Source: Pseudomonadota bacterium (GTDB taxonomy: Bacteria; Pseudomonadota; Alphaproteobacteria; Rhizobiales; Hyphomicrobiaceae). Taken from it: a DNA stretch of 64,000 bases. The DNA lies in the NCBI GenBank assembly GCA_018242255.1, contig JAFECH010000369.1, positions 21,904-85,903 of the forward strand. The letters are read 5' to 3'. Shown one piece after another: positions 9,917 through 45,381 of the stretch. Position numbers and translations under genes: made by a program. Each line of letters opens with the position of its first letter. The first letter of the stretch is position 1. The notes under the pieces were generated by a model. The model saw nothing but the letters and a program-made list of their open reading frames with translations, was not told the DNA's origin and ran no database searches.

Positions 9917-11620
9917 CTAAGCGGCCCGCGCGACGGTAGCCGCGTTGGGCAAGCATTGCGCGTGAATGTCCCGCTCTCTCGCCATAGTATAGGTGGCCGC
10001 GATGGCATCAAAAATGTCTTGCAGCGGACCGAGAATATCTGCGACTTCGATATCTCCTTCCCCTGCGAGCGCATGAAGGGACGTCGCTGATGTCGACAAG
10101 ACATTTCCGAACTCGGCATCGAAATTCAACTCGCTCTCGGCTTGCGAAAGCGAATCGACGACATCCGTTCCGTGTCGCACGACAGTCGCTAGTCCGCTCT
10201 CCGCCAGATCGGCAGCGTCGCGCAAGCGCGCCGCAGCACTTTCAAGCCTGGATTTAGAGCTGGTCTGCGAGCGGTCGCTATTCAAATTTGCTACATCTTC
10301 GCCGAGCGAGCGGAGAGCCGCGAGCGTCACGTCAGCGATCGAACCGAGTTTCTTGGCATAAAGGCGAAGCTCGATCGCGATAACCTGAAGCGGCTTGCCC
10401 GCATCGCCCATGCGCGAGCAACTGACGGTCGTATTGAGCGCCATGAACTGCACGTCTTCGCGGACGCCTTTGATGGCATCGATCCGCCGCAGCAACTCAT
10501 CGACCGTTAGCGCCGTCGCAGAACGGACGTCATTGGCCGTCGCAACGGCTTGCTCCATGTCTGTAACCAGGATCTCGGCGTCACCCACGCTTCGCTCCAG
10601 GGAGCGAAGGTTGTTATGGCTAACCGATGAGCCCTGCGTTTGCTGTAGACGCAAAAGGGATTGCGCATCGGCCGCCATCCCCGACATGTTCGCAAGCATA
10701 CCTCGGGAATCGCGCTCGAAGCCGTCGGCCGTATCGGCAAGTTGAGTAGCAAGCAGCCGGCAGACGAATTTCGCAAATCGCTCGCGCGCATCCTCCGAAA
10801 GCCCGTTTTCGGCCAACCCCGCTTCGGCTCGGGTTAGGAGATTGAGCCCATTCTGAATGTGCTCGATTCGCTGCCGCGATATATCGCCGATCTGGAGCGA
10901 CGATAGCGCATCGACGACCTTGAGCTGGATATTTTGCGCAAGCGCTGAGGCTTGTCCCGTCATGTCGGAGATCTGCTTTTGATGCGCCCGTATTGCGGTC
11001 GCATCGTCCGCCAGACGATTGGGCACGGCGGGCACCATCGCGTGTACGTCTTCGGCGAGGTCAGATTCGAGCTTCAGCGCCGCGCGAACCTGATCAAGCA
11101 GCTCATTGAGCCGCATATCGATGTCATCGAGCTCGGTGACCCCGACCTCGATTCTCGTTCGCATTTCCTGCGAAAAAGCGTGAACTAATTGCGCGTCTTG
11201 CTGATCGTCGGCAGCCGTGATCTTCAAGTTCAGAGCGAAGACGAGAAGATAACGCAGAAGGCTTCGCATATCTTCGATATCGCTCAGCAATCCGACACTT
11301 CGGCATTCCAGATCGCGCAGCTCTTGCCCGCGTTCCCTCAGCATGGTCGGGAGCGATCGCAGTTCTCCAGCGGCGACGGTGAGTTCCCGCGTTGCTTCTC
11401 CGACCGCTTGGCCGTCAAGCAGGCCACTCAGCTGCTGCAGGTATTCGAGTTGTTGACTGATCAAAGAGACGGCGGATTCGAGAATTGTGCCCGCACGCGA
11501 GAATTTTCCCTCGATCTGGCTTCGCGAAGTCTCCAGGTCGCCTAGGATTGCCTCAATCATCGAATGCGGGTGTCCAATTTTGCCATGACGGCCGAAAGTT
11601 TGGGTGTTCGGCACAACCAC
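9917..11620 (-). CDS. soluble receptor-like coiled-coil protein with an eroded signalling tip
   Basis: Up to 567 residues, almost entirely helical, with no membrane segment or signal peptide. Residues 383-425 (DVQFMALNTTVSCSRMGDAG, then LQVIAIELRLYAKKLG) align by eye with the chemoreceptor tip, but the usual NLLALNAAIEAARAGE core is largely replaced: only the ALN part and the following Val-Ile-Ala-x-Glu-x-Arg helix remain. A central LQIGDISRQRIEHIQNGL segment resembles motifs of other soluble chemotaxis-related proteins. The start is uncertain: GTG at 11620 lies 13 bases after the preceding gene, ATG at 11560 gives a cleaner N terminus, and neither has a good ribosome-binding site. It is the third gene of the minus-strand unit after the receiver and the GGDEF-EAL gene. 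It may bind CheA or CheW, or be a decoy or regulator. Confidence 0.7.
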   Translation of the reverse strand: MVVPNTQTFGRHGKIGHPHSMIEAILGDLETSRSQIEGKFSRAGTILESAVSLISQQLEYLQQLSGLLDGQAVGEATRELTVAAGELRSLPTMLRERGQELRDLECRSVGLLSDIEDMRSLLRYLLVFALNLKITAADDQQDAQLVHAFSQEMRTRIEVGVTELDDIDMRLNELLDQVRAALKLESDLAEDVHAMVPAVPNRLADDATAIRAHQKQISDMTGQASALAQNIQLKVVDALSSLQIGDISRQRIEHIQNGLNLLTRAEAGLAENGLSEDARERFAKFVCRLLATQLADTADGFERDSRGMLANMSGMAADAQSLLRLQQTQGSSVSHNNLRSLERSVGDAEILVTDMEQAVATANDVRSATALTVDELLRRIDAIKGVREDVQFMALNTTVSCSRMGDAGKPLQVIAIELRLYAKKLGSIADVTLAALRSLGEDVANLNSDRSQTSSKSRLESAAARLRDAADLAESGLATVVRHGTDVVDSLSQAESELNFDAEFGNVLSTSATSLHALAGEGDIEVADILGPLQDIFDAIAATYTMARERDIHAQCLPNAATVARAA

Positions 11621-11633
11621 TGTTGCGCAGGTG

Positions 11634-12989
11634 TCAAAGCATAGCTCGCGATGTATGTTTGGAGACTTTACCAGTGACAGCGTCGTAGTGTCCCGCCGGC
11701 ATCGGCTTACCGATAAGATAGCCCTGGATCTGCTGGCAACCGAGCATTCGCAGCAGTCTCAGTTGCTCTTCCGTCTCGACGCCTTCAGCAACGACATTCA
11801 ATCCCATCGCACGTCCAAGTCCAAGAACCGAATCGACGATCGCAGCCGCGTCGGAATTGCGAACCATATCGAAGACGAAACTCCGATCGATCTTGATCCG
11901 GTCGAATGGGAAAGCGCGGAGTGTGCCGAGCGACGAATAGCCTGTGCCGAAGTCGTCAAGCGCGACGCTGACACCAAGCGCTTTGACCCCATTGAGAACC
12001 TTCGACGCATAGGCGAGGTTCTGAATGAACAGGCTCTCGGTCACCTCGATTTCAAGACGTTCCGGCGCCAAACCGGTCTCAATGAGCGCGCTTCTGACCA
12101 CTTGGACGAGGTCGCCGCGTTCGATTTGCACCGGCGACACATTGACGGCAACGCGAAGGCCATTTGTCCAAGAGGAAGCTTCGCGGCACGCCTCGCGCAG
12201 GACATATGCTCCGATGGCACCGATAGCTCCGGACGCCTCGGCTGCTGGGATGAAATCAGCCGGCGATACCGCACCGAAATCGGGATGCTGCCAACGGGCT
12301 AGCGCTTCGAATCCGCTGATGGCAGACGTCGATGCGTCCGCTTGCGGCTGAAAGACAAGGGAAAGTTCGCCCCGTTCCAGAGAGAGGCCGACGTCGTGCC
12401 CCAAGATCAGACGTCTGTGCTCCGTAATCAGCATCTCTGGAGAGAAAGCCGAGACCTCGTCGCCGATTTTTTTGGCGTGATGAAGCGCCAACTCGGCAGC
12501 GGCGATTAGATCCTCATCATCGGATCCATGTCTGGGAAAGATTGCAGTACCGACACAAGCCGTGACGCGGATCGTCTTGCCGTTTTCGAGGGCATGGGGT
12601 TCGCGCAGCGTGCCGACGATATGGTGCGCCTTCGCGCTGAAGTCGCAGTCCGGCCTGTCGCTTGGCGAGATGAGCAGAAACTCATCGCCACCCGTGCGCA
12701 CGATCGTGTCGGTTTCGCCGGAGATAGAACGAAGACGGTTGGCGATGCGGCTGATAATGACATCGCCAACTGCCTGGCCGTGAAGCTTGTTGACGGCACT
12801 GAAATCGTCGAGATCGATATGGAAAATTCCGACGGATTGTCGGTTGGTCGTCGCTTGCTGCAGAATTCGAGCGAACAATTCCTTCAGCGTTCCGCGGTTG
12901 TGAAGACCGGTCAGCGGATCGCAAATCGCCAGCTGGCTGAGACGAGAGATAAGTTCGTGCTCGCTCTCTAAACTACCGGACTCAATCAT
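11634..12989 (-). CDS. GGDEF-EAL dual-domain cyclic-di-GMP enzyme
   Basis: A 451-residue cytoplasmic protein with no membrane segments. The ATG at 12989 overlaps the stop of the receiver gene (ATGA), favouring it over the longer frame to 13049. The diguanylate cyclase domain has the intact GGDEF motif at residues 100-104 (RTGGDEFLLI) and lacks the RxxD inhibitory site just before it. The phosphodiesterase domain has EAL at 228-230 (FEALARWQ), NVSPVQ, EVTES, DDFGTGYSS, KIDRSFV and EGVE, all expected catalytic motifs. Both activities are therefore possible. The sequence does not tell which dominates. Coupling to a CheY-like gene suggests control by phosphorylation or by the chemosensory complex next door. 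Confidence 0.92.
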   Translation of the reverse strand: MIESGSLESEHELISRLSQLAICDPLTGLHNRGTLKELFARILQQATTNRQSVGIFHIDLDDFSAVNKLHGQAVGDVIISRIANRLRSISGETDTIVRTGGDEFLLISPSDRPDCDFSAKAHHIVGTLREPHALENGKTIRVTACVGTAIFPRHGSDDEDLIAAAELALHHAKKIGDEVSAFSPEMLITEHRRLILGHDVGLSLERGELSLVFQPQADASTSAISGFEALARWQHPDFGAVSPADFIPAAEASGAIGAIGAYVLREACREASSWTNGLRVAVNVSPVQIERGDLVQVVRSALIETGLAPERLEIEVTESLFIQNLAYASKVLNGVKALGVSVALDDFGTGYSSLGTLRAFPFDRIKIDRSFVFDMVRNSDAAAIVDSVLGLGRAMGLNVVAEGVETEEQLRLLRMLGCQQIQGYLIGKPMPAGHYDAVTGKVSKHTSRAML

Positions 12990-13348
12990 TGCAGCAATCC
13001 GCGCGCGATATCTAAGAGCCCTTGTACATTGAACGGTTTGGTGATCCATGCCGATGCTCCCGCGGCACTAGCTTCTTTCAGCGCCGCCTGATCGGACTCG
13101 GTAGTCAATACGATAATGGGCAGACTATGATAGGTCGGCCTGGCGCGCAAATGCCGAATAAACGCGAGCCCGTTCATTCGCGGCATATTGAGGTCTGTCA
13201 CGACGATATCGATGTGTGTCGACGTCGCCTTCTGTAATCCCTCTAGTCCGTCGGAAGCCTCGATAATTTCGAACCCGGCACTTGCGAATGTTACCCGGAT
13301 CATCTGCCGGACGCTTGGCGAGTCATCGATCGCGAGCAGTATCGGCAT
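12986..13348 (-). CDS. stand-alone CheY-like receiver
   Basis: A 120-residue receiver with D8-D9, phospho-acceptor D52 in VVTDLNMPRMNG, IIVLTTES and the Lys of WITKPF. The start at 13348 is chosen because GAGGAAG precedes that ATG by six bases; the frame is open to 13363. It closely resembles the CheY at 2595-2963 (both have TDLNMP, TTESD, an AGA-Gly/Ser-A-W-TKPF end), which suggests duplication within the locus. It is translationally coupled to the GGDEF-EAL gene, so it probably connects CheA phosphorylation to cyclic-di-GMP turnover. Confidence 0.92.
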   Translation of the reverse strand: MPILLAIDDSPSVRQMIRVTFASAGFEIIEASDGLEGLQKATSTHIDIVVTDLNMPRMNGLAFIRHLRARPTYHSLPIIVLTTESDQAALKEASAAGASAWITKPFNVQGLLDIARGLLQ

Positions 13349-37045: not shown

Positions 37046-37074
37046 ATTAAGCGAAAGTATACTTATGGAGTCAA
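37046..37074 (-). promoter_or_regulatory. putative promoter and operator of the haem operon
   Basis: On the minus strand TTGACT (37074-37069), 17 bases, then CTTAAT (37051-37046): five and four matches to the sigma-70 consensus at the ideal distance. Between them lies the perfect palindrome AAGTATACTT, a good place for a repressor. Start of transcription would be about 50 bases before the ATG at 36991. The promoter overlaps the end of the metallopeptidase gene. Confidence 0.6.
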
Positions 37075-38163
37075 GTTTAATGTTTGGGCATTTTCCGATG
37101 CGGCCGGCTCTTGCGGCTGCTGCTCCATGCGCTCATGGATCATGCGATGAACGAACGCCAGCTTGTCGTAGGCGGGTTCCGGAATGACGAACGGGTAGAA
37201 ATCGTCATGCCCCATGCTTCGGCTAAGACTGTTCATAGCGATGGTCAGTGGAATCCAGCGCGCCATCAACACGCCGAACGTCACGCTGGAATAAATGTCG
37301 TCGCGGAGATCCAGGCGAAGGCCATGCCCTTGCATGCCTTCAGCGGCTGCGGTGTCGAGTGCATCGACCATGTGGAGATAGTGCGCCCACGTCTCGGCCC
37401 AATCTTCCCATGGGTGCGCGCTGGCGTAGGCCGATACGTATTGCTCTTGCCAATCGGGGACCGGTCCGTTGGCGTGGTGGCGAGCGAGCGCCGCATCGTA
37501 ATCGTCGCGTTCGTCGCCGAAAATTTCGCGAAATTCTTCGAGCCGCCCGGCCTCTTCGACAAGCACCATCCAATAGTAATGTCCGCTTTCGTGGCGAAGA
37601 TGGCCAAGCAGCGAACGATACGGTTCGTCGAATTGCTGGCGCTGCCGTTCGCGTTCAACGGCGTCGGCTTCGCTGACGTCAATGGTCACGACGCCATCGA
37701 GGTGTCCGGTCAGCGCATTGCGAACGAAGTCGAACGTCAGCGGCCCTTTTGTTGAAGCTGAGCCGTCGAACGGCAGACCGAACCGCAGCAGCGAATAGAC
37801 CAGCCGCTTCTTGGCGTGCTCGATCGCGCGCCAAGCCAGGAGACTTCCGGGCTCGGAGAGATTGGGAATGATGCGATTGAGGTCGCAGGCTTTACAAAAG
37901 ATGTTGCTATCGTTCTCGGGCGTCAGCCAGTTGCAGACGCCGAATTCGGCATTGGCACAGTAACGTAGCGCGATGTCGTCCGGAGCGGCACTAAGTTTGC
38001 GGAAGATCGGAATGTCGGGCGTCGTTTCGCTTAAGCCCGCGTCCGTGATGGCAACGATGGCTTGCTCGGCGCTATCAAAGCCAAGCGTGCTAGCGCATTT
38101 CACACACTTCACGTTCTCAAAATAAACGGTATTTCCGCAGTTCGAGCAGGCAAAATTCTTCAT
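37063..38163 (-). CDS. two-zinc-ribbon HExxH metallopeptidase (COG4307-like)
   Basis: A 366-residue protein. The ATG at 38163 has CAGGAG upstream; the frame is open to 38223. The N terminus carries a zinc ribbon (C6, C9, C20, C23) and a second cysteine set (C69, C77, C90, C93). The peptidase part has HESGH at 191-195 within LGHLRHESGHYYWMVL, a zincin active site, and a later Trp-rich segment (PWEDWAETWAHYLHMVDALD) that fits the usual third-ligand region. Family members have no known substrate but are repeatedly found near transglutaminase/ATP-grasp/alpha-E genes, as here where it is divergent from that cluster. Confidence 0.88.
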   Translation of the reverse strand: MKNFACSNCGNTVYFENVKCVKCASTLGFDSAEQAIVAITDAGLSETTPDIPIFRKLSAAPDDIALRYCANAEFGVCNWLTPENDSNIFCKACDLNRIIPNLSEPGSLLAWRAIEHAKKRLVYSLLRFGLPFDGSASTKGPLTFDFVRNALTGHLDGVVTIDVSEADAVERERQRQQFDEPYRSLLGHLRHESGHYYWMVLVEEAGRLEEFREIFGDERDDYDAALARHHANGPVPDWQEQYVSAYASAHPWEDWAETWAHYLHMVDALDTAAAEGMQGHGLRLDLRDDIYSSVTFGVLMARWIPLTIAMNSLSRSMGHDDFYPFVIPEPAYDKLAFVHRMIHERMEQQPQEPAASENAQTLNLTP

Positions 38164-38480
38164 TCTGGCGACCGCCAACTCCTGAAAAGGAAAGTATGCC
38201 TTTCCAGTATGGCCCAAACACACGAGGCGGCGACATCGCAGCTTCCGTTCGAGCGATTTTGCGGATAAGTCACGCAGTTGCCTTCATAAAACGCAAGGGG
38301 CTGCTAATTCTTCAGCATTCTGCCCAAACGTCCAGCAGAAATTTGGGCTGCGCAGTTTTTAGGCTGCGCCACGCTTGTACCACATCTATCGGACCGCTAA
38401 CGCAGGTAGACATATTTCGTTGCTGAGCGCTCGTCTGACGGGCGTCCATCGCGAGATCAAACAGGGATAATGCCTCATCC
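38164..38480. other. divergent intergenic region between the metallopeptidase and transglutaminase genes
   Basis: No gene. It holds the divergent promoters of the metallopeptidase and the transglutaminase operon. An inverted repeat GCGCAG (38350-38355) and CTGCGC (38364-38369) with an eight-base T-rich loop could be an operator or hairpin. No clear promoter boxes. Confidence 0.5.
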
Positions 38481-41400
38481 ATGGCCCTTCATGTCGCGCT
38501 GACCCATAAAACGAGCTACCGGTACGATCGACGTGTCAACATGGGGCCACAAGTCGTCAGGCTGTGGCCGGCGCCGCACTGCCGAACCCCTATCCTCAGC
38601 TATTCGCTGACCATCACCCCCAAGACGCATTTTCTCAATTGGCAACAGGATCCGTTCGGCAATTTCCTGGCGCGCGTCGTGATGCCGGAGGAAACGACGG
38701 AATTTTCCGTCACGGTGGACCTCGTCGCCGACATGGCGGTGATCAATCCGTTCGACTTTTTCATCGAGGAGAGCGCGAAGGACTGGCCGTTCACCTATGA
38801 CGACCACCTGAAGCAGGAGCTTGCGCCGTATCTCGTGCCTGACGCGGTTGGCCCGAACCTCAAGCGCTATCTCAAAAAGGTCAGCACGAAGCCGCAAACG
38901 ACGATCGACTTCATATGCGATCTCAATCGCATGGTGCAGAGCGACGTCGGCTACCTCATCCGCATGGAGCCCGGAGTCCAGACGCCCGAACAGACGCTTT
39001 CAAATGCTTCGGGCTCCTGCCGCGACAGCGCTTGGCTGCTGACGCAGATCATGCGCAACGTTGGCCTCGCTGCGCGTTTCGTATCCGGCTACCTGATCCA
39101 GCTAAAGCCCGACGTGAAACCGCTCGACGGCCCCGCTGGTACCGATACGGATTTCACCGATCTGCATGCTTGGTGCGAAGTCTACATCCCCGGTGCCGGC
39201 TGGATCGGCCTTGACGCAACGTCTGGCCTGCTCGCTGGCGAAGGCCATATCCCGCTGGCTGCCACGCCGCATCCCGTCAGCGCTGCGCCGATCACTGGCA
39301 GCCACACCCAGGCCGAGGTTGAATTCGACTTCGTGATGGCCGTGACGCGCATTCGCGAAACCCCGCGCGTGACAAAGCCCTACGATGACGAAACCTGGAC
39401 GTCGATCGTCGAAACCGGCAAAGCCGTCGATGAGCGCCTCACAAAGGGTGACGTTCGCCTCAGCATGGGTGGCGAGCCGACGTTTGTCTCGGCGGACGAT
39501 ATGGAAGGCGCGGAATGGAATACCGCGGCCGTTGGCCCGACCAAGCGCCGCTATGCTGACGAACTCGTTCGCCGTCTACAGCGCCGTTTCGCGCCGGGCG
39601 CCATGCTGCATTACGGCCAGGGCAAATGGTATCCCGGCGAGCAACTGCCGCGCTGGGCTTTCGCGCTCTACTGGCGCGGTGACGGCCAACCGCTTTGGGA
39701 AAACCAGGATCTGATCGTCAGTGAAAGCGTCGCCCGCCCTGCGACCCCGGAAGACGCCGACAAGCTAATGCGCGGAGTGTGCAAGCAACTTGGTCTCCCC
39801 GATGACAGCGCGATGCCGGCGTACGAGGACCCGGCGCATTTTCTCCTGGTCGAACGAAAGCTGCCGATCAACGTCACGGCCGAAGACAACAAGCTTGAAG
39901 ATCCGGCCGAGCGTGCGCGCATCGCCCGTGTGTTCGATCGCGGCCTCGGTTCTGTCGCAAGCTACGTGCTGCCGATCCAGGCGTGGCAGACCGCTGACCG
40001 AGGTCGTCGCTGGGTCACAGAACGCTGGGCGCTCCGCCGCGATCACCTGTTCCTTATTCCGGGCGATTCGCCTGCTGGGTTCCGGCTGCCCTTGCAGTCG
40101 TTTCCGGTCGTTTCGCCGCTCGACTATCCGCACGTGATCGAGTGCGATCCGATGGGCCCGAACCGGCCGCTTCCCGAACGTACGATCTTGCTACAGCAGC
40201 GCCGGGTCGTGACGCTCGAAGCGCCGCCTGTGAGCCAGCAAGCCAGCGTGGCGCCGGAAATATCCGGCTCCGTTCGCACCGCCTTGGCGATCGAGCCGCG
40301 CGGCAACGCCATCTGCGTGTTCATGCCACCACTTTACGATGCCGAAGACTATGCGGCGCTGATCGCGGCTGTCGAAGAGGCCGCCAAGCAGACCGGAGTG
40401 CCGGTGCAGATCGAAGGCTATAATCCGCCGCCGGACGCACGCCTGAACGTGATCAAGGTGACGCCCGATCCCGGCGTCATCGAAGTCAACATTCACCCTT
40501 CGACAAGCTGGGAAAACTCCGTCGCAATCACGACCGCGCTTTATGAGGAAGCGCATGCCACCCGCCTTAGCGCTGAAAAGTTCATGCTCGACGGTCGTCA
40601 CACCGGAACCGGCGGCGGCAACCATATTGTGCTGGGCGGCATCACGCCTGCCGACAGTCCGTTTCTCCGGCGCCCCGATTTGTTGGCGTCCGTGGTCACC
40701 TACTGGCAGAACCATCCGGCGCTGTCGTACTTTTTCTCCGGCATGTTCATCGGCCCAACAAGCCAGGCGCCGCGTACCGATGAAGCGCGCCACGAGTCGC
40801 TTTACGAGCTTGAGATCGCGCTCTCGCAGGTGCCGAATCCGGGAATGGGCCATATCCCGCCGTGGCTGGTGGATCGTCTGTTCCGCAACTTGCTGATCGA
40901 CGTCACCGGCAACACGCACCGTGCCGAGATCTGCATTGACAAGCTCTATTCGCCCGACGGCCCGACGGGACGCCTTGGGCTCGTGGAATTTCGTTCGTTC
41001 GAGATGCCGCCGCACGCGCGTATGAGCTTGGCGCAGCAGCTACTTCTCCGCGCCTTGGTGGTTATGTTCTGGGAAAAGCCCTACCGCCAAAAGCTCGTGC
41101 GCTGGGGGACCGCGCTCCATGATCGTTTCATGCTGCCGCACTACCTGTGGACCGATCTCGCCGCCGTCGTCGCCGATCTCAAAGAGGCGGGCCTGCCCAT
41201 TGAGCTAGAATGGTTCCGCCCGCATTTCGAGTTCCGCTTCCCGCTTTTCGGCACCATCACCGCCGATAATCTAACCCTTGAGCTGCGTCAGGCTTTGGAG
41301 CCATGGCACGTCCTCGGCGAAGAAAGCACTGCGGGCGGCACGGCCCGATACGTCGATTCTTCGCTTGAACGTGTCGAGGTGAAGGTTAAGGGCCAGACCG

Positions 41401-41783
41401 GCGATCGCTACGTCGTGACCTGCAACGGCCGTCCCTTGCCGCTCGCTGGGACGGGGAACTGGGGCGAAGCGGTCGCGGGGGTCCGCTACCGCGCGTGGTG
41501 GCCACCCTCCGCGCTCCATCCGACCATTCCGCCACATGTGCCGCTGACGTTCGACGTCGTCGATACGTGGTCGGGCCGGTCGGTCGCGGGCTGTCGCTAC
41601 CATGTCGCCCACCCCGGCGGCCGCAACTTCGAGGTGTTCCCGATCAACGCTTACGAAGCCGAAGGCCGCCGTCTGGCCCGATTCGACGCGGAAGGGCATA
41701 CGGCCGGTCCGATGCACGTCAGGCCAGAGAGCGTTAACCCGGATTACCCGGCGACCCTCGACCTTCGGCGCAATCCAGGCTGA
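38481..41783 (+). CDS. transglutaminase-DUF2126 fusion protein
   Basis: A 1100-residue cytosolic protein. Residues 1-270 are a bacterial transglutaminase-like domain with its N-terminal beta domain (HVALTHKTSYRYDRRVNMGP) and an intact triad: C180 in ASGSCRDSAW, H229 in LHAWCEVY, D245 in WIGLDATSG. The rest is the large DUF2126 region (LSMGGEPTFVSADDMEGAEW, GRHTGTGGGNHIVLGG, later LEIALSQVPNPGMG and SPDGPTGRLGLVEFRSFEMP) that resembles amidoligase/glutamine-synthetase-like catalytic folds. It probably makes or breaks an amide bond on an unknown peptide or protein. It heads a three-gene operon. Confidence 0.93.
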   Translation: MALHVALTHKTSYRYDRRVNMGPQVVRLWPAPHCRTPILSYSLTITPKTHFLNWQQDPFGNFLARVVMPEETTEFSVTVDLVADMAVINPFDFFIEESAKDWPFTYDDHLKQELAPYLVPDAVGPNLKRYLKKVSTKPQTTIDFICDLNRMVQSDVGYLIRMEPGVQTPEQTLSNASGSCRDSAWLLTQIMRNVGLAARFVSGYLIQLKPDVKPLDGPAGTDTDFTDLHAWCEVYIPGAGWIGLDATSGLLAGEGHIPLAATPHPVSAAPITGSHTQAEVEFDFVMAVTRIRETPRVTKPYDDETWTSIVETGKAVDERLTKGDVRLSMGGEPTFVSADDMEGAEWNTAAVGPTKRRYADELVRRLQRRFAPGAMLHYGQGKWYPGEQLPRWAFALYWRGDGQPLWENQDLIVSESVARPATPEDADKLMRGVCKQLGLPDDSAMPAYEDPAHFLLVERKLPINVTAEDNKLEDPAERARIARVFDRGLGSVASYVLPIQAWQTADRGRRWVTERWALRRDHLFLIPGDSPAGFRLPLQSFPVVSPLDYPHVIECDPMGPNRPLPERTILLQQRRVVTLEAPPVSQQASVAPEISGSVRTALAIEPRGNAICVFMPPLYDAEDYAALIAAVEEAAKQTGVPVQIEGYNPPPDARLNVIKVTPDPGVIEVNIHPSTSWENSVAITTALYEEAHATRLSAEKFMLDGRHTGTGGGNHIVLGGITPADSPFLRRPDLLASVVTYWQNHPALSYFFSGMFIGPTSQAPRTDEARHESLYELEIALSQVPNPGMGHIPPWLVDRLFRNLLIDVTGNTHRAEICIDKLYSPDGPTGRLGLVEFRSFEMPPHARMSLAQQLLLRALVVMFWEKPYRQKLVRWGTALHDRFMLPHYLWTDLAAVVADLKEAGLPIELEWFRPHFEFRFPLFGTITADNLTLELRQALEPWHVLGEESTAGGTARYVDSSLERVEVKVKGQTGDRYVVTCNGRPLPLAGTGNWGEAVAGVRYRAWWPPSALHPTIPPHVPLTFDVVDTWSGRSVAGCRYHVAHPGGRNFEVFPINAYEAEGRRLARFDAEGHTAGPMHVRPESVNPDYPATLDLRRNPG

Positions 41784-41923
41784 AAATCGCAATCGGAGCG
41801 TTTCCAAAGCGGTTCCCCCCTCTTTTGCCGCAGAGCCTCGCTTGCGGACGGCGATTCGGCACATGATAGTGTGTGTCGTTCAATCGGTGATTTGGGGGAC
41901 CGTCGCGGCGTGGATCAGTCGGA

Positions 41924-44494
41924 ATGACGACAGCAGCGGCAATGAAAGCGGAGCCATTGTTCAGCCTTTTGAGCGCCTATCGGCGTCAGGAGGTGTCGGG
42001 ATTTGACGAACTGCTGGAAAACGGCGGATCGATCCGTGAGCACTGGCGTCCGCTGCTCAGCGACCTAGCGCAGCTGAGCGAAGCCGAGCGCGACTTGCGC
42101 GCCGCTCGTCTTGCCCGCCGGGTCCGCGAAACGGGCATCGCATATGATATTTTCGCCGACCCCAACACGTCGGCGCAGCGCTGGTGTCTCGATCTTCTCC
42201 CCGTTGTCATTTCGGCAAGCGAATGGCGTGGCCTTGAGCGCGCGCTCGTTCAGCGTGCCCGACTGTTCGACGCCATCCTGAACGATGTCTACGGCGATCA
42301 GAATTTGGTGCGCCAGGGCCTCATCCCGGCCGAGCTGCTGTTTTCCGATCCTGCCTATCTCGTTCCCTGCAGAGATGTGCTGCCGAATGCCGGCGGGCTG
42401 AGGTTCTATGCCGCCGATCTTGCCCGCGGCGAGGATGGTCAGTGGCGCGTCATCGACAATCACACCGAAACGTTGGCCGGCATCGGCTTTACTCTCGCCA
42501 ATCGTGTCGTCCACACGCATGTCACGGGCGATATTTTCAAGGACTGCAACGCCCGTCGGTTGGCGCCCTATTTCCAGGAGCTGCAATCGACACTGACGTT
42601 GCACAGCGGCCGTGAAAACGCGCGCATCGCTTTGCTGACGCCAGGCCCCCACCACGAAGACTATTTCTCGCATGCTTATCTCGCGCGTTACCTCGGCTAT
42701 CTGATCGTTGAGGGCCACGATCTCAAAACCCGAAATTCTCAGGTCTATCTCAAGACGCTCGAAGGCCTGAAAGAAATCGATCTGATCGTTCGCTGCATCA
42801 GCGGCAAATCAAGCGATCCGTTGGAACTTGATCCGACGGGCTTCATCGGCCCATCCGGCCTGCTGAGAGTCTGCCGTAAGTCGCCGCATCTCGTCGTCAA
42901 TGCGATCGGCACGGCGCTGGCGCAAAACCGCGGTCTCGGGCCTTATCTGCCGCAACTCGCACAGTATGTTCTAGGCGAAGACCTGCTGCTCCAAGATGCG
43001 CATCGCCGCTGGCTCGGGGATGGCGAGGCCCGTCAAGAGCTGTTCGCAAACCCAGAGCGCTTCACCATCCGGAAGGCTCAGGAAGGAATGGGGCGGCCGG
43101 GCCAGGCGGCGCTGGGCTGGGAGGCGCGAGGGCTCTCGACATCGGAGCGCGAAGAGATTCGGCGCGAGATTGAGCTGCATGGCGCTACGCTCGTTGCCGA
43201 AGAAAAGATCGGATTTAGTTCGTCTCCCGTCTATTCCGACGGCGCGCTCATCCCGAAGCCGTTCGCGATTCGCGTTTATATGTCACGCACGTCCTCCGGC
43301 GATTATCAGGTTATGCCGGGCGGCCTCGCTATGTGCGTCGCGCCGGGCCGCGCCGTCGCTTTGAGTGCACCGGATGGACAGGCGCGCGACGTTTGGGTTA
43401 TCGGCGAAGGCGAGCAGGCGCCGCACATCAGTCTCTGGCGGCCGACGCTCGCCACGGCGCGAGTCGCGAGATCGCAGCGCGTCATTCAAAGCCGCGTAGC
43501 CGACGATCTCTTTTGGCTCGGCCGGTACAGCGAGCGCGCCGATTGGACCATGCGCGTGCTGCGCGGCGCGCTCCGTCGCGTCGAAGAAGATAGCGGCCCA
43601 CATACCGGGCAGCGCGCGGCGCGCAAATGCCTTGAGGTTTTGCTCGGCAAAGACCTGAGTTCTGTCACAGGCACTCGCGAAACTCCGCCCGACGATGTCA
43701 TCGAGCGTCTTTGCCGCCGCCTCATAACGACAGGCCTCGGTTCGCGCACGCTGGAACGCACGCTCGACGGGCTTTATCGCGTTGCCCATCTCGTTCGAGA
43801 CCGCCTCTCGCTGGAAGCCTGGCAGACGCTGAGCAAATTCCGCGGTGGCGAGTCCTGGCGCAAGGCTCTAACTTCCGCCCGCCCCGTCGAGATTCTCGAC
43901 TTGCTCGATGAAGGCATCACCGCCGTTGCCGCGTTCAACGGGTTTATGCACGAAAACATGACGCGCAACTTCGGGTGGTCGTTCCTCGACATGGGTCGGC
44001 GCATCGAACGCGCGCAAAACCTCAGCGAAGCTATTCTGACACTATTCATTCCGGCGTCCGATCCGGAAGAGACGTCGAGCAGCCTTCTGCTGCTGCTCGA
44101 ACTCGCGGACAGCTTCATCACCTATCGCTCCCGCTACCGGCTCGATCCGATGCTGCCGCTGGTCCTGGATTTGCTTTTGCTGGATGAGACAAATCCCCGA
44201 AGTCTCGCCTACCAACTCTCGGCCATCGCGCGCCATCTCGAAAGTTTACCGGACTCCTCGCAAGGGGCGAGCTTGCCTGACGACCGCCGCCTTATTATAG
44301 CCCTGCTAACGTCGATCCGTTTGGCCGACGTCGAAGCAATGGCGAAAGAAGAAACCGTAAAGACACTTGAGAGCCTGCTGATGGATCAGCTCGATATGCT
44401 GCCCGAGCTGTCCAACGAAATCTCGCGCCGCTACTTCAATGTGCTCGACGAAGCGCCCCATCGGACGCACACGAGGGTCGGTCCCTCGATATGA
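41924..44494 (+). CDS. circularly permuted ATP-grasp fused to alpha-E domain
   Basis: An 856-residue fusion. Residues about 60-490 are the circularly permuted ATP-grasp type 2 domain (VFQ-like LVRQGLIPAELLFSDPAYLV, VIDNHTETLAGIGFTLANR, later VAEEKIGFSSSPVYSDGALI and RPFAIR-type KPFAIRVYMS). Residues about 520-840 are the all-helical alpha-E domain, beginning SRVADDLFWLGRYSERADW. The two are usually separate genes. ATP-grasp enzymes ligate a carboxylate to an amine; the alpha-E part is an unexplained partner. An alternative start is the ATG at 41942. The stop overlaps the next gene by four bases. Confidence 0.93.
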   Translation: MTTAAAMKAEPLFSLLSAYRRQEVSGFDELLENGGSIREHWRPLLSDLAQLSEAERDLRAARLARRVRETGIAYDIFADPNTSAQRWCLDLLPVVISASEWRGLERALVQRARLFDAILNDVYGDQNLVRQGLIPAELLFSDPAYLVPCRDVLPNAGGLRFYAADLARGEDGQWRVIDNHTETLAGIGFTLANRVVHTHVTGDIFKDCNARRLAPYFQELQSTLTLHSGRENARIALLTPGPHHEDYFSHAYLARYLGYLIVEGHDLKTRNSQVYLKTLEGLKEIDLIVRCISGKSSDPLELDPTGFIGPSGLLRVCRKSPHLVVNAIGTALAQNRGLGPYLPQLAQYVLGEDLLLQDAHRRWLGDGEARQELFANPERFTIRKAQEGMGRPGQAALGWEARGLSTSEREEIRREIELHGATLVAEEKIGFSSSPVYSDGALIPKPFAIRVYMSRTSSGDYQVMPGGLAMCVAPGRAVALSAPDGQARDVWVIGEGEQAPHISLWRPTLATARVARSQRVIQSRVADDLFWLGRYSERADWTMRVLRGALRRVEEDSGPHTGQRAARKCLEVLLGKDLSSVTGTRETPPDDVIERLCRRLITTGLGSRTLERTLDGLYRVAHLVRDRLSLEAWQTLSKFRGGESWRKALTSARPVEILDLLDEGITAVAAFNGFMHENMTRNFGWSFLDMGRRIERAQNLSEAILTLFIPASDPEETSSSLLLLLELADSFITYRSRYRLDPMLPLVLDLLLLDETNPRSLAYQLSAIARHLESLPDSSQGASLPDDRRLIIALLTSIRLADVEAMAKEETVKTLESLLMDQLDMLPELSNEISRRYFNVLDEAPHRTHTRVGPSI

Positions 44495-45381
44495 TCTTCG
44501 ATATCGTCCATAAGACACACTACCGCTACCGGTCGACAGTGGTGCAATCGTTGCACCTCGTGCACATGTCGCCGCGCACGATGCCAGGACAAATCGTTCG
44601 CAATCACAGTCTGCTTGTCGAACCTGCGCCCGCATCGCGGCAGGAGCGTATCGACGCGTTCGGCAACGTCGAAATCATTCTCGATATCGAAGAACCGCAT
44701 CAAGAGCTTGTGCTGCTTGCGCGCAGCACCGTCGAGAAATCTCTGCCGCCTCCGGTCGATCTGACCGCAACGACGCCGTGGGATGCGCTCGATCTTTGTC
44801 TGAGCAAAGGCCCACAACAACGCGACGTTGACGTGTCAATGTTCCGCTGCGCCTCGCGGCTGACGCCGCCGACAATGGAAATCGCGGACTATGCGGCCTT
44901 CTCGTTCGCACCGATGCGGCCAGTCCTCGAAGGCGCCATGGATTTCGTCATGCGAATTTACAATGATTTTAAGTTCGATCCGCACGCAACCGATGTGTCG
45001 ACGCCGGTTACGCAGGTCTTCGCCATGCGTCGCGGCGTCTGTCAGGACTTCGCGCATCTAGCACTCGCAGGCTTTCGCGCGCTTCGTATTCCGGCGCGCT
45101 ACGTCAGCGGCTATCTCCACACGCACCCGCCGGTTGGGCGGCCGAAGCTGCAGGGCGCCGATGCTTCGCACGCGTGGATCTCAGTCTGGTCGCCGGAATA
45201 CGGTTGGGTCGATCTCGATCCAACAAACGGCATCATTGTCCGCGATGAGCACATCACGGTCGCATTCGGCCGTGATTACGACGACGTCAGCCCGATCAGC
45301 GGCGTCCTGCGCGGTGGGGGCGAGCATGCCGTCAGCGTCGGCGTCGATGTGAACGTGGCTGCCGGCGCAACAGCAGACTGA
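44491..45381 (+). CDS. second transglutaminase-like protease/transferase
   Basis: A 296-residue protein with the beta domain (MIFDIVHKTHYRYRSTVVQS) and a transglutaminase core: C184 in RRGVCQDFAHLAL, H227 in SHAWISVWSP, D243 in GWVDLDPTNG. All three catalytic residues are in place. It is shorter than the first transglutaminase and lacks DUF2126. Being translationally coupled to the ATP-grasp/alpha-E gene it likely acts in the same peptide-modifying pathway, perhaps cutting what the ligase joins. Confidence 0.93.
   Translation: MIFDIVHKTHYRYRSTVVQSLHLVHMSPRTMPGQIVRNHSLLVEPAPASRQERIDAFGNVEIILDIEEPHQELVLLARSTVEKSLPPPVDLTATTPWDALDLCLSKGPQQRDVDVSMFRCASRLTPPTMEIADYAAFSFAPMRPVLEGAMDFVMRIYNDFKFDPHATDVSTPVTQVFAMRRGVCQDFAHLALAGFRALRIPARYVSGYLHTHPPVGRPKLQGADASHAWISVWSPEYGWVDLDPTNGIIVRDEHITVAFGRDYDDVSPISGVLRGGGEHAVSVGVDVNVAAGATAD

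Follow-up and report, generated by a model that had tools for sequence, protein, structure and literature searches.

This report concerns a four-gene cluster in a 64,000-nucleotide stretch of DNA (contig JAFECH010000369.1 of assembly GCA_018242255.1, from a bacterium of the Hyphomicrobiaceae), the whole of which is called the window. A gene for a zinc peptidase of the Peptidase_Mx family (hereafter Mx) is divergent there from an operon encoding a transglutaminase-fold domain fused to DUF2126, a circularly permuted ATP-grasp ligase fused to alpha-E, and a second transglutaminase-fold enzyme (Table 1). The ligase gene set is of a known kind, Mx is associated with such sets across genomes and, contrary to an original prediction made from this DNA, Mx does not replace the proteasome-family peptidase Anbu genome-wide. 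We hold, at a probability of about 0.5, that the cluster is a second amidoligase module existing alongside Anbu, and that Mx and the transglutaminase-fold enzymes would process its product.

The four open reading frames (ORFs) lie where the original prediction had placed them, and Pfam confirmed their identities, with all named matches far above the curated cut-offs. The minus-strand ORF, listed at 37063-38223 (386 aa), carries Zn_ribbon_DZR_6 and Peptidase_Mx; the product of the first ligase gene (1100 aa) carries Bact_transglu_N, Transglut_core and DUF2126 (PF09899, 1333 bits); the next (856 aa) carries CP_ATPgrasp and Alpha-E; and the last (296 aa) again carries Bact_transglu_N and Transglut_core. 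Scores of 362 bits for PF14403 and 223 bits for PF04174 identify the ATP-grasp part as circularly permuted, and its solved relative is 3n6x (E 2.9e-54). The alpha-E domain (PF04168, 232 bits) has an ER motif in which E537 is invariant and R538 nearly invariant among the 15 aligned proteins. The start of the second transglutaminase gene overlaps the stop of the ATP-grasp-alpha-E gene by 4 bases. All components of the predicted amidoligase gene set, namely circularly permuted ATP-grasp, alpha-E, transglutaminases and DUF2126, are present by Pfam, and neither the ORF list nor Pfam revealed an Anbu gene within the cluster. Searches of six window proteins against NCBIfam, and of five against defence-system models, gave no match.

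Table 1. Features of the cluster, in window coordinates
Feature	Position	Strand	Evidence
Peptidase_Mx gene: two zinc ribbons (4 + 4 Cys) and HExxH zinc peptidase domain	37063..38163 (probable start 38163)	-	Pfam PF10005, PF15887
Divergent spacer between peptidase gene and ligase operon	38164..38480	.	weakly conserved; no operator or sigma-54 site seen
Transglutaminase-fold domain fused to DUF2126 (putative glutamine-synthetase-like amidoligase)	38481..41783	+	Pfam, alignment n=17, Foldseek
Circularly permuted ATP-grasp ligase fused to alpha-E	41924..44494	+	PF14403/PF04174/PF04168, 3n6x, alignment n=15
Second transglutaminase-fold enzyme	44491..45381	+	Pfam, solved relatives 3isr and 6g49, triad 16/16

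The catalytic residues proved intact, as had been claimed. The triad C180/H229/D245 is invariant in 17/17 aligned transglutaminase-DUF2126 proteins, the triad C184/H227/D243 in all 16 aligned second transglutaminases, and HExxH is kept in 109/109 Peptidase_Mx sequences; the window protein retains the eight zinc-ribbon cysteines and both domains. Also invariant in the 109 sequences are H250, E253, D254 and E257 (numbered from a start at 38163), which, judged by conservation, may supply or surround the third zinc ligand. Most homologues resemble the listed peptidase only from about its residue 21 onwards, a position at which nearly all of them have Met; translation therefore probably starts at 38163 rather than 38223, which leaves a spacer of 317 bases.

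The association between Mx and the ligase genes was assessed in a phylum sample of 398 genomes, with Mx in 69, DUF2126 in 120 and Anbu in 144. DUF2126 was present in 55/69 Mx genomes versus 65/329 others (odds ratio 16). Alpha-E was present in 67/69 Mx genomes, only 2/69 being without it, versus 35/80 controls, these being the first 80, by name order, of 100 random Mx-lacking genomes, some of them incomplete (32/61 among the near-complete controls). Nineteen genomes, from 11 families, had Mx and DUF2126 no more than 15 kb apart, where random placement expects 0.4-0.7 such genomes, so that the predicted tie between the metallopeptidase and the ligase set stands above chance level. In a class sample of 142 genomes, which overlaps partly with the phylum sample, Mx divergently adjoined DUF2126 in three genomes, two of one genus; the class totals were 21 genomes with DUF2126, nine with an over-cut-off Mx match and 48/142 with alpha-E.

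These counts depend on how matches were handled. The Mx search matched 72 genomes, of which 69, with 77 genes, were kept; G330, G346 and G415 were dropped for having only partial or broken matches, as were partial second Mx matches in G000, G170, G243, G290, G463, G491 and G509, and the two Mx pieces of G514 were counted as one gene by coordinates. The DUF2126 count takes in all 120 listed genomes, including an edge fragment in G229, and leaves out a sub-cut-off match (G143:C95) and a second fragment in G284. Matches in G330 and G346 (Mx) and in G514 (Mx and DUF2126) are stop-broken or split, possibly through gene decay or sequencing error. Anbu was searched with one protein at E 1e-10, so divergent Anbu genes may be missed.

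The linkage was also inspected at named loci, the best 80 of 585 found and for that reason biased towards relatives of the window; neighbours were identified by tblastn, the queries being eight source-genome proteins, and nine proteins from four loci were checked with profiles. At 21 of the 80, ligase genes lay within 10 kb of Mx: 16 of the DUF2126 type, two with an ATP-grasp-alpha-E fusion plus transglutaminase, two with separate ATP-grasp and alpha-E genes, and one of this separate type plus Anbu. Ligase-linked loci span Pseudomonadota, Bacteroidota (L024, L035, L043, L074) and Myxococcota (L064), and gene order varies: Mx is divergent from DUF2126, as in the window, in L019-L022, L053, L064, L070, L076, L080 and L096, convergent with it in L083 and, outside the named set, in L102, co-directional in L035, L052 and L059, and placed between DUF2126 and the ATP-grasp fusion in L068 and L074. 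L034 was rejected as a DUF2126-linked locus, its match being a stand-alone transglutaminase 8.7 kb away. In Paracoccus chinensis (L030:10001-20188) a unit of Mx, ATP-grasp and alpha-E occurs twice in tandem, the copies being 74, 88 and 58% identical, and an Anbu match at the locus end belongs to the same cluster. Two further loci, L105 (G184) and L108 (G293), hold both ligase sets and Mx in one cluster, one set with separate ATP-grasp and alpha-E and the other with DUF2126, fused ATP-grasp-alpha-E and transglutaminase; neither genome has an Anbu match. The remaining 59 named loci had neighbour groups mostly confined to a single clade, either Bradyrhizobium-like or Rhizobium-like; a group of 21 loci resembles sensor kinases by eye, and three large groups offset over Mx itself are, we think, out-of-frame ORFs. 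Our literature search, which did not reach the founding 2009 paper, found no report of the Mx–ligase link, for which no priority is claimed.

A search of the whole source genome (G000) for proteasome-family genes, as the original prediction had proposed, yielded two. One lies in an ORF read by eye as HslV (L001); the Anbu gene, at G000:C273:18938-19669, is on a separate contig from the window cluster and is the last gene of a run in which circularly permuted ATP-grasp, alpha-E and transglutaminase genes stand directly upstream. The description "no Anbu" is therefore right for the locus and wrong for the organism, and an Anbu with its own ATP-grasp, alpha-E and transglutaminase is the very observation that the original prediction had named as telling against it. 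The genome holds two alpha-E genes and one DUF2126 gene in total. It also encodes a second full-length Peptidase_Mx (C309:6458-7201), with no ligase gene in the surrounding 17 kb; we rejected this gene as a recent duplicate of the window Mx, the two falling in different clades of the Mx tree. Because the genome keeps both a second ligase set with Anbu and a second Peptidase_Mx, Mx is not read here as a stand-in for Anbu.

In our reading two ligases, the fused ATP-grasp-alpha-E protein and the DUF2126 domain with its putative likeness to glutamine synthetase, would make an amide-linked peptide or conjugate. Trimming, transfer or release of this product would fall to Mx and to the pair of cysteine enzymes with a transglutaminase fold. 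Two ATP-using ligases, two cysteine hydrolases or transferases and a zinc peptidase, with no export signal seen by eye, point to a cytoplasmic build-and-trim pathway; catalysis by these proteins, the direction of each step and a substrate shared among them are likewise presumed, and it is plausible that the product is first built and then cut. Mx would be an additional hydrolase; it recurs beside circularly permuted ATP-grasp/alpha-E sets of both types. By analogy with the regulated clusters discussed below, the cluster is probably part of the nitrogen or amino-acid economy of the cell.

Several observations weigh against this reading. On a quick tree of the 109 Mx proteins, with linkage changes counted on the 92 rows not cut short, parsimony required at least 16 changes, yet linkage was clade-clustered (0/500 shuffles gave a count as low), and the well-supported branches force fewer changes, 8 of 16, in a count on the DUF2126 label that still included L034. 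The sampled genomes are related, so the P values are too small. Mx lacks ligase genes within 10 kb at 42 of the 63 named loci that remain once 17/80 ending at contig ends near Mx, without a visible ligase, are set aside; since, in addition, 65/120 DUF2126 genomes have no Mx, Mx is optional. Foldseek found no solved relative of the Mx model (best E 0.21), and no sigma-54 site (TGGC-N7-TTGC, with up to one mismatch) was found in 38164-38480. According to the available parts of two articles, Anbu proteins cut none of the peptides tested (PMC6376114), and the Anbu gene PP_2685 of Pseudomonas putida itself rose little, 1.1 to 4.8 (PMC7801951). The frequency of unlinked Mx genes, to which the C309 gene of the source genome adds another, would suit a peptidase that is merely a frequent neighbour, through a shared promoter region or hitch-hiking, and has a function of its own, as would the poor conservation of the divergent spacer. 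We think this distinctly unlikely, in view of the 19 linked genomes where fewer than one is expected, the recurrence of the linkage in different gene orders and phyla, the joint duplication of Mx with ATP-grasp and alpha-E in L030, and the rarity of Mx genomes without alpha-E.

The proposal that Mx takes the place of Anbu as eraser of a tag made by the cluster draws on their local distribution: in the phylum sample, 19 DUF2126 loci have Mx within 15 kb and 17 have Anbu, with no overlap (P 0.04, relatedness ignored). Six of the 19 Mx-linked genomes have no Anbu match (G184, G293, G442, G472, G494, G520); nor have the class genomes G004 and G140, which share the window's arrangement and contain separate ATP-grasp and alpha-E sets, and at two Hymenobacter loci (L024, L043) Mx stands next to separate ATP-grasp and alpha-E genes, again without a local Anbu match. 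Across genomes, however, Anbu is as frequent with linked Mx as in other DUF2126 genomes (present in 13/19 versus 63/101, absent in 6/19 versus 38/101), the two peptidases are positively associated (Anbu in 49/69 Mx genomes versus 95/329 others), and they are direct neighbours in 3/398 genomes, beside separate ATP-grasp and alpha-E (L099, L100, L101; the neighbour genes of L099 and L100 were checked with Pfam, in which the L100 Anbu had no match at E 1e-05), besides sharing a cluster in L030. Together with the Anbu set of the source genome itself, these data led us to reject Mx as a genome-wide stand-in, and replacement of Anbu by Mx is, to our judgement, quite improbable. Because no DUF2126 locus had both peptidases within 15 kb, a locally exclusive "peptidase slot" may nevertheless exist at such loci, a point in favour of the original prediction. 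A tagging system is also conceivable: proteins would receive a short peptide from the ligases, and the transglutaminases, Mx and Anbu would act as its erasers or editors. PMC5666114 and PMC6376114 cite a published hypothesis of this sort for the gene set, and the presence of several hydrolases of unrelated folds beside the ligases would fit it; but the gene groups recurring within 5 kb of Mx, which lacked profile annotation, included no obvious tag protein or unfoldase, and the portion of PMC6376114 available reports no specific interaction between Anbu and the other operon proteins. We regard tagging as doubtful.

As the Mx model, although confident (AlphaFold2, mean pLDDT 90.4), matched no solved fold, a zincin fold is predicted for it from the motif, from weak profile similarity and from a published prediction of a zincin with intact HExxH for DUF2248/PF10005 (PMC3650047, seen in part). 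The Mx family weakly resembles Peptidase_Mx1 (best E 1.5e-05, and E no higher than 1 for 36/40 members). Around its second motif there is a weak alignment (E 0.033) with 9urd, a solved zinc metallohydrolase lipoprotein that probably belongs to Peptidase_Mx1; Mx differs from both in its two zinc ribbons. The model of the DUF2126 protein was moderate (mean pLDDT 68.8), and its Foldseek hits were transglutaminases and, at a weak level, many chains of glutamine synthetase (the best being 9n4x, with probability 0.98 but E 0.02), with other weak matches to a bifunctional glutathione synthetase and to unrelated folds. The modelled likeness to glutamine synthetase agrees weakly with the name amidoligase and does not prove it.

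A distant Peptidase_Mx relative of 342 aa, without zinc ribbons and with the motifs HETGH and HPVEDFAET, is encoded elsewhere in the source genome (L008:5099-7170, on G000:C66 at about 11098-13169), where its gene shares 4 bases with a D-Ala-D-Ala-ligase-like ATP-grasp gene; the latter reached the cut-off of none of the 25 NCBIfam families shown. These genes adjoin in 10 of 11 genomes from three genera, eight of the ten being of one genus; in the remaining genome, G346, the sole trace of Mx is a broken fragment from a different stretch. This adjacency points to a wider association between Mx-type peptidases and amide ligases. That Mx-type zinc proteins are the general hydrolase half of bacterial amide-ligase systems, a shared processing enzyme of a nitrogen or amino-acid store paired both with circularly permuted ATP-grasp/alpha-E/DUF2126 sets and, through the ribbon-less relative, with the D-Ala-D-Ala-ligase-like gene, we consider an unlikely extension. 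If it were true, the two ligase sets, Anbu and three Mx-type proteins of the source genome would build and recycle amide-linked products. Mx, seldom found without alpha-E, offers a new handle on the product of the widespread Anbu/alpha-E/ATP-grasp systems: a catalytically dead Mx could trap the ligase product, organisms with Mx and without Anbu are a simpler background in which to look for it, and the wrong simplification of Mx replacing Anbu is removed.

On one flank of the cluster are a Peripla_BP_2 binding protein and ORFs resembling heme uptake by eye, and on the other cytochrome b561, YceI and a FabH-like gene; bioD excepted, the flanking genes tested recur beside the cluster at just one of the loci searched, L019 of Hyphomicrobium sp. 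AWTP1-2, the nearest relative, where the peptidase is 83% identical and the locus ends within bioA. A Hyphomicrobium-like source for the window is accordingly probable. Among five Hyphomicrobium-type loci, mean column identity in the divergent spacer was 52% and no conserved operator was seen; scans for sigma-70 sites and terminators gave results below the shuffled means. Among other observations on these families, Mx ends long open frames of 714 and 713 aa at L010:5869-8013 and L011:6302-8443, which are either fusions or merely open upstream sequence, and 50 plasmid records have an Mx match. DUF2126 lies within 1 kb of Anbu in 15/398 genomes (G143, G149, G156, G162, G166, G171, G187, G191, G195, G197, G208, G257, G295, G307 and G341), and so occurs in Anbu clusters too.

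The amidoligase system predicted by Iyer et al. in 2009 reportedly has an Ntn-hydrolase peptidase in addition to a circularly permuted ATP-grasp, alpha-E and a ligase resembling glutamine synthetase; apart from the peptidase, these are also found in the window cluster, DUF2126 being the putative ligase of that type. The actinobacterial Rv2566-Rv2569c region presumably has the same gene set. HvyA of Caulobacter was rejected as a comparator, being periplasmic, with a signal sequence, and in our view of a different subfamily.

Nitrogen regulation is described for related clusters in articles of which parts were available. The P. putida Anbu operon PP_2685-2688, described as a proteasome-beta-like protein, a transglutaminase and two hypothetical proteins (PMC7801951, PMC3325844), is marked NtrB/NtrC, and PP_2686-2688 rise 11 to 37 under nitrogen limitation (PMC7801951); PP_2685 is given elsewhere at 11.1 and 4.0 (PMC3325844). 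The Burkholderia cenocepacia cluster I35_5080-83 (DUF404/DUF407, DUF403, a transglutaminase-like protein and a large transglutaminase-like protein) depends on NtrC and sigma-54 and is lower in an ntrC mutant (PMC5491218), and the same domains are associated with urea metabolism in marine metagenomes (PMC3597751); the available portion of PMC8665760 makes no mention of the operon. Neither PP_2685-2688 nor I35_5080-83 has, in the excerpts at hand, an Mx-type metallopeptidase named as a member, and no sigma-54 site was found upstream of the window cluster, so that its regulation may differ from theirs. In the Yersinia system the ATP-grasp protein releases phosphate from ATP (PMC6376114, in part). 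The Anbu operon, as set out in parts of PMC5666114 and PMC6376114, consists of ATP-grasp, alpha-E, transglutaminase and Anbu. From it the window cluster differs in its DUF2126-transglutaminase fusion, ATP-grasp-alpha-E fusion, second transglutaminase and Peptidase_Mx, and in having no adjacent Anbu; it shares with it the circularly permuted ATP-grasp, alpha-E and transglutaminase families, and a set of the Anbu type, with Anbu, is present on contig C273 of the same genome.

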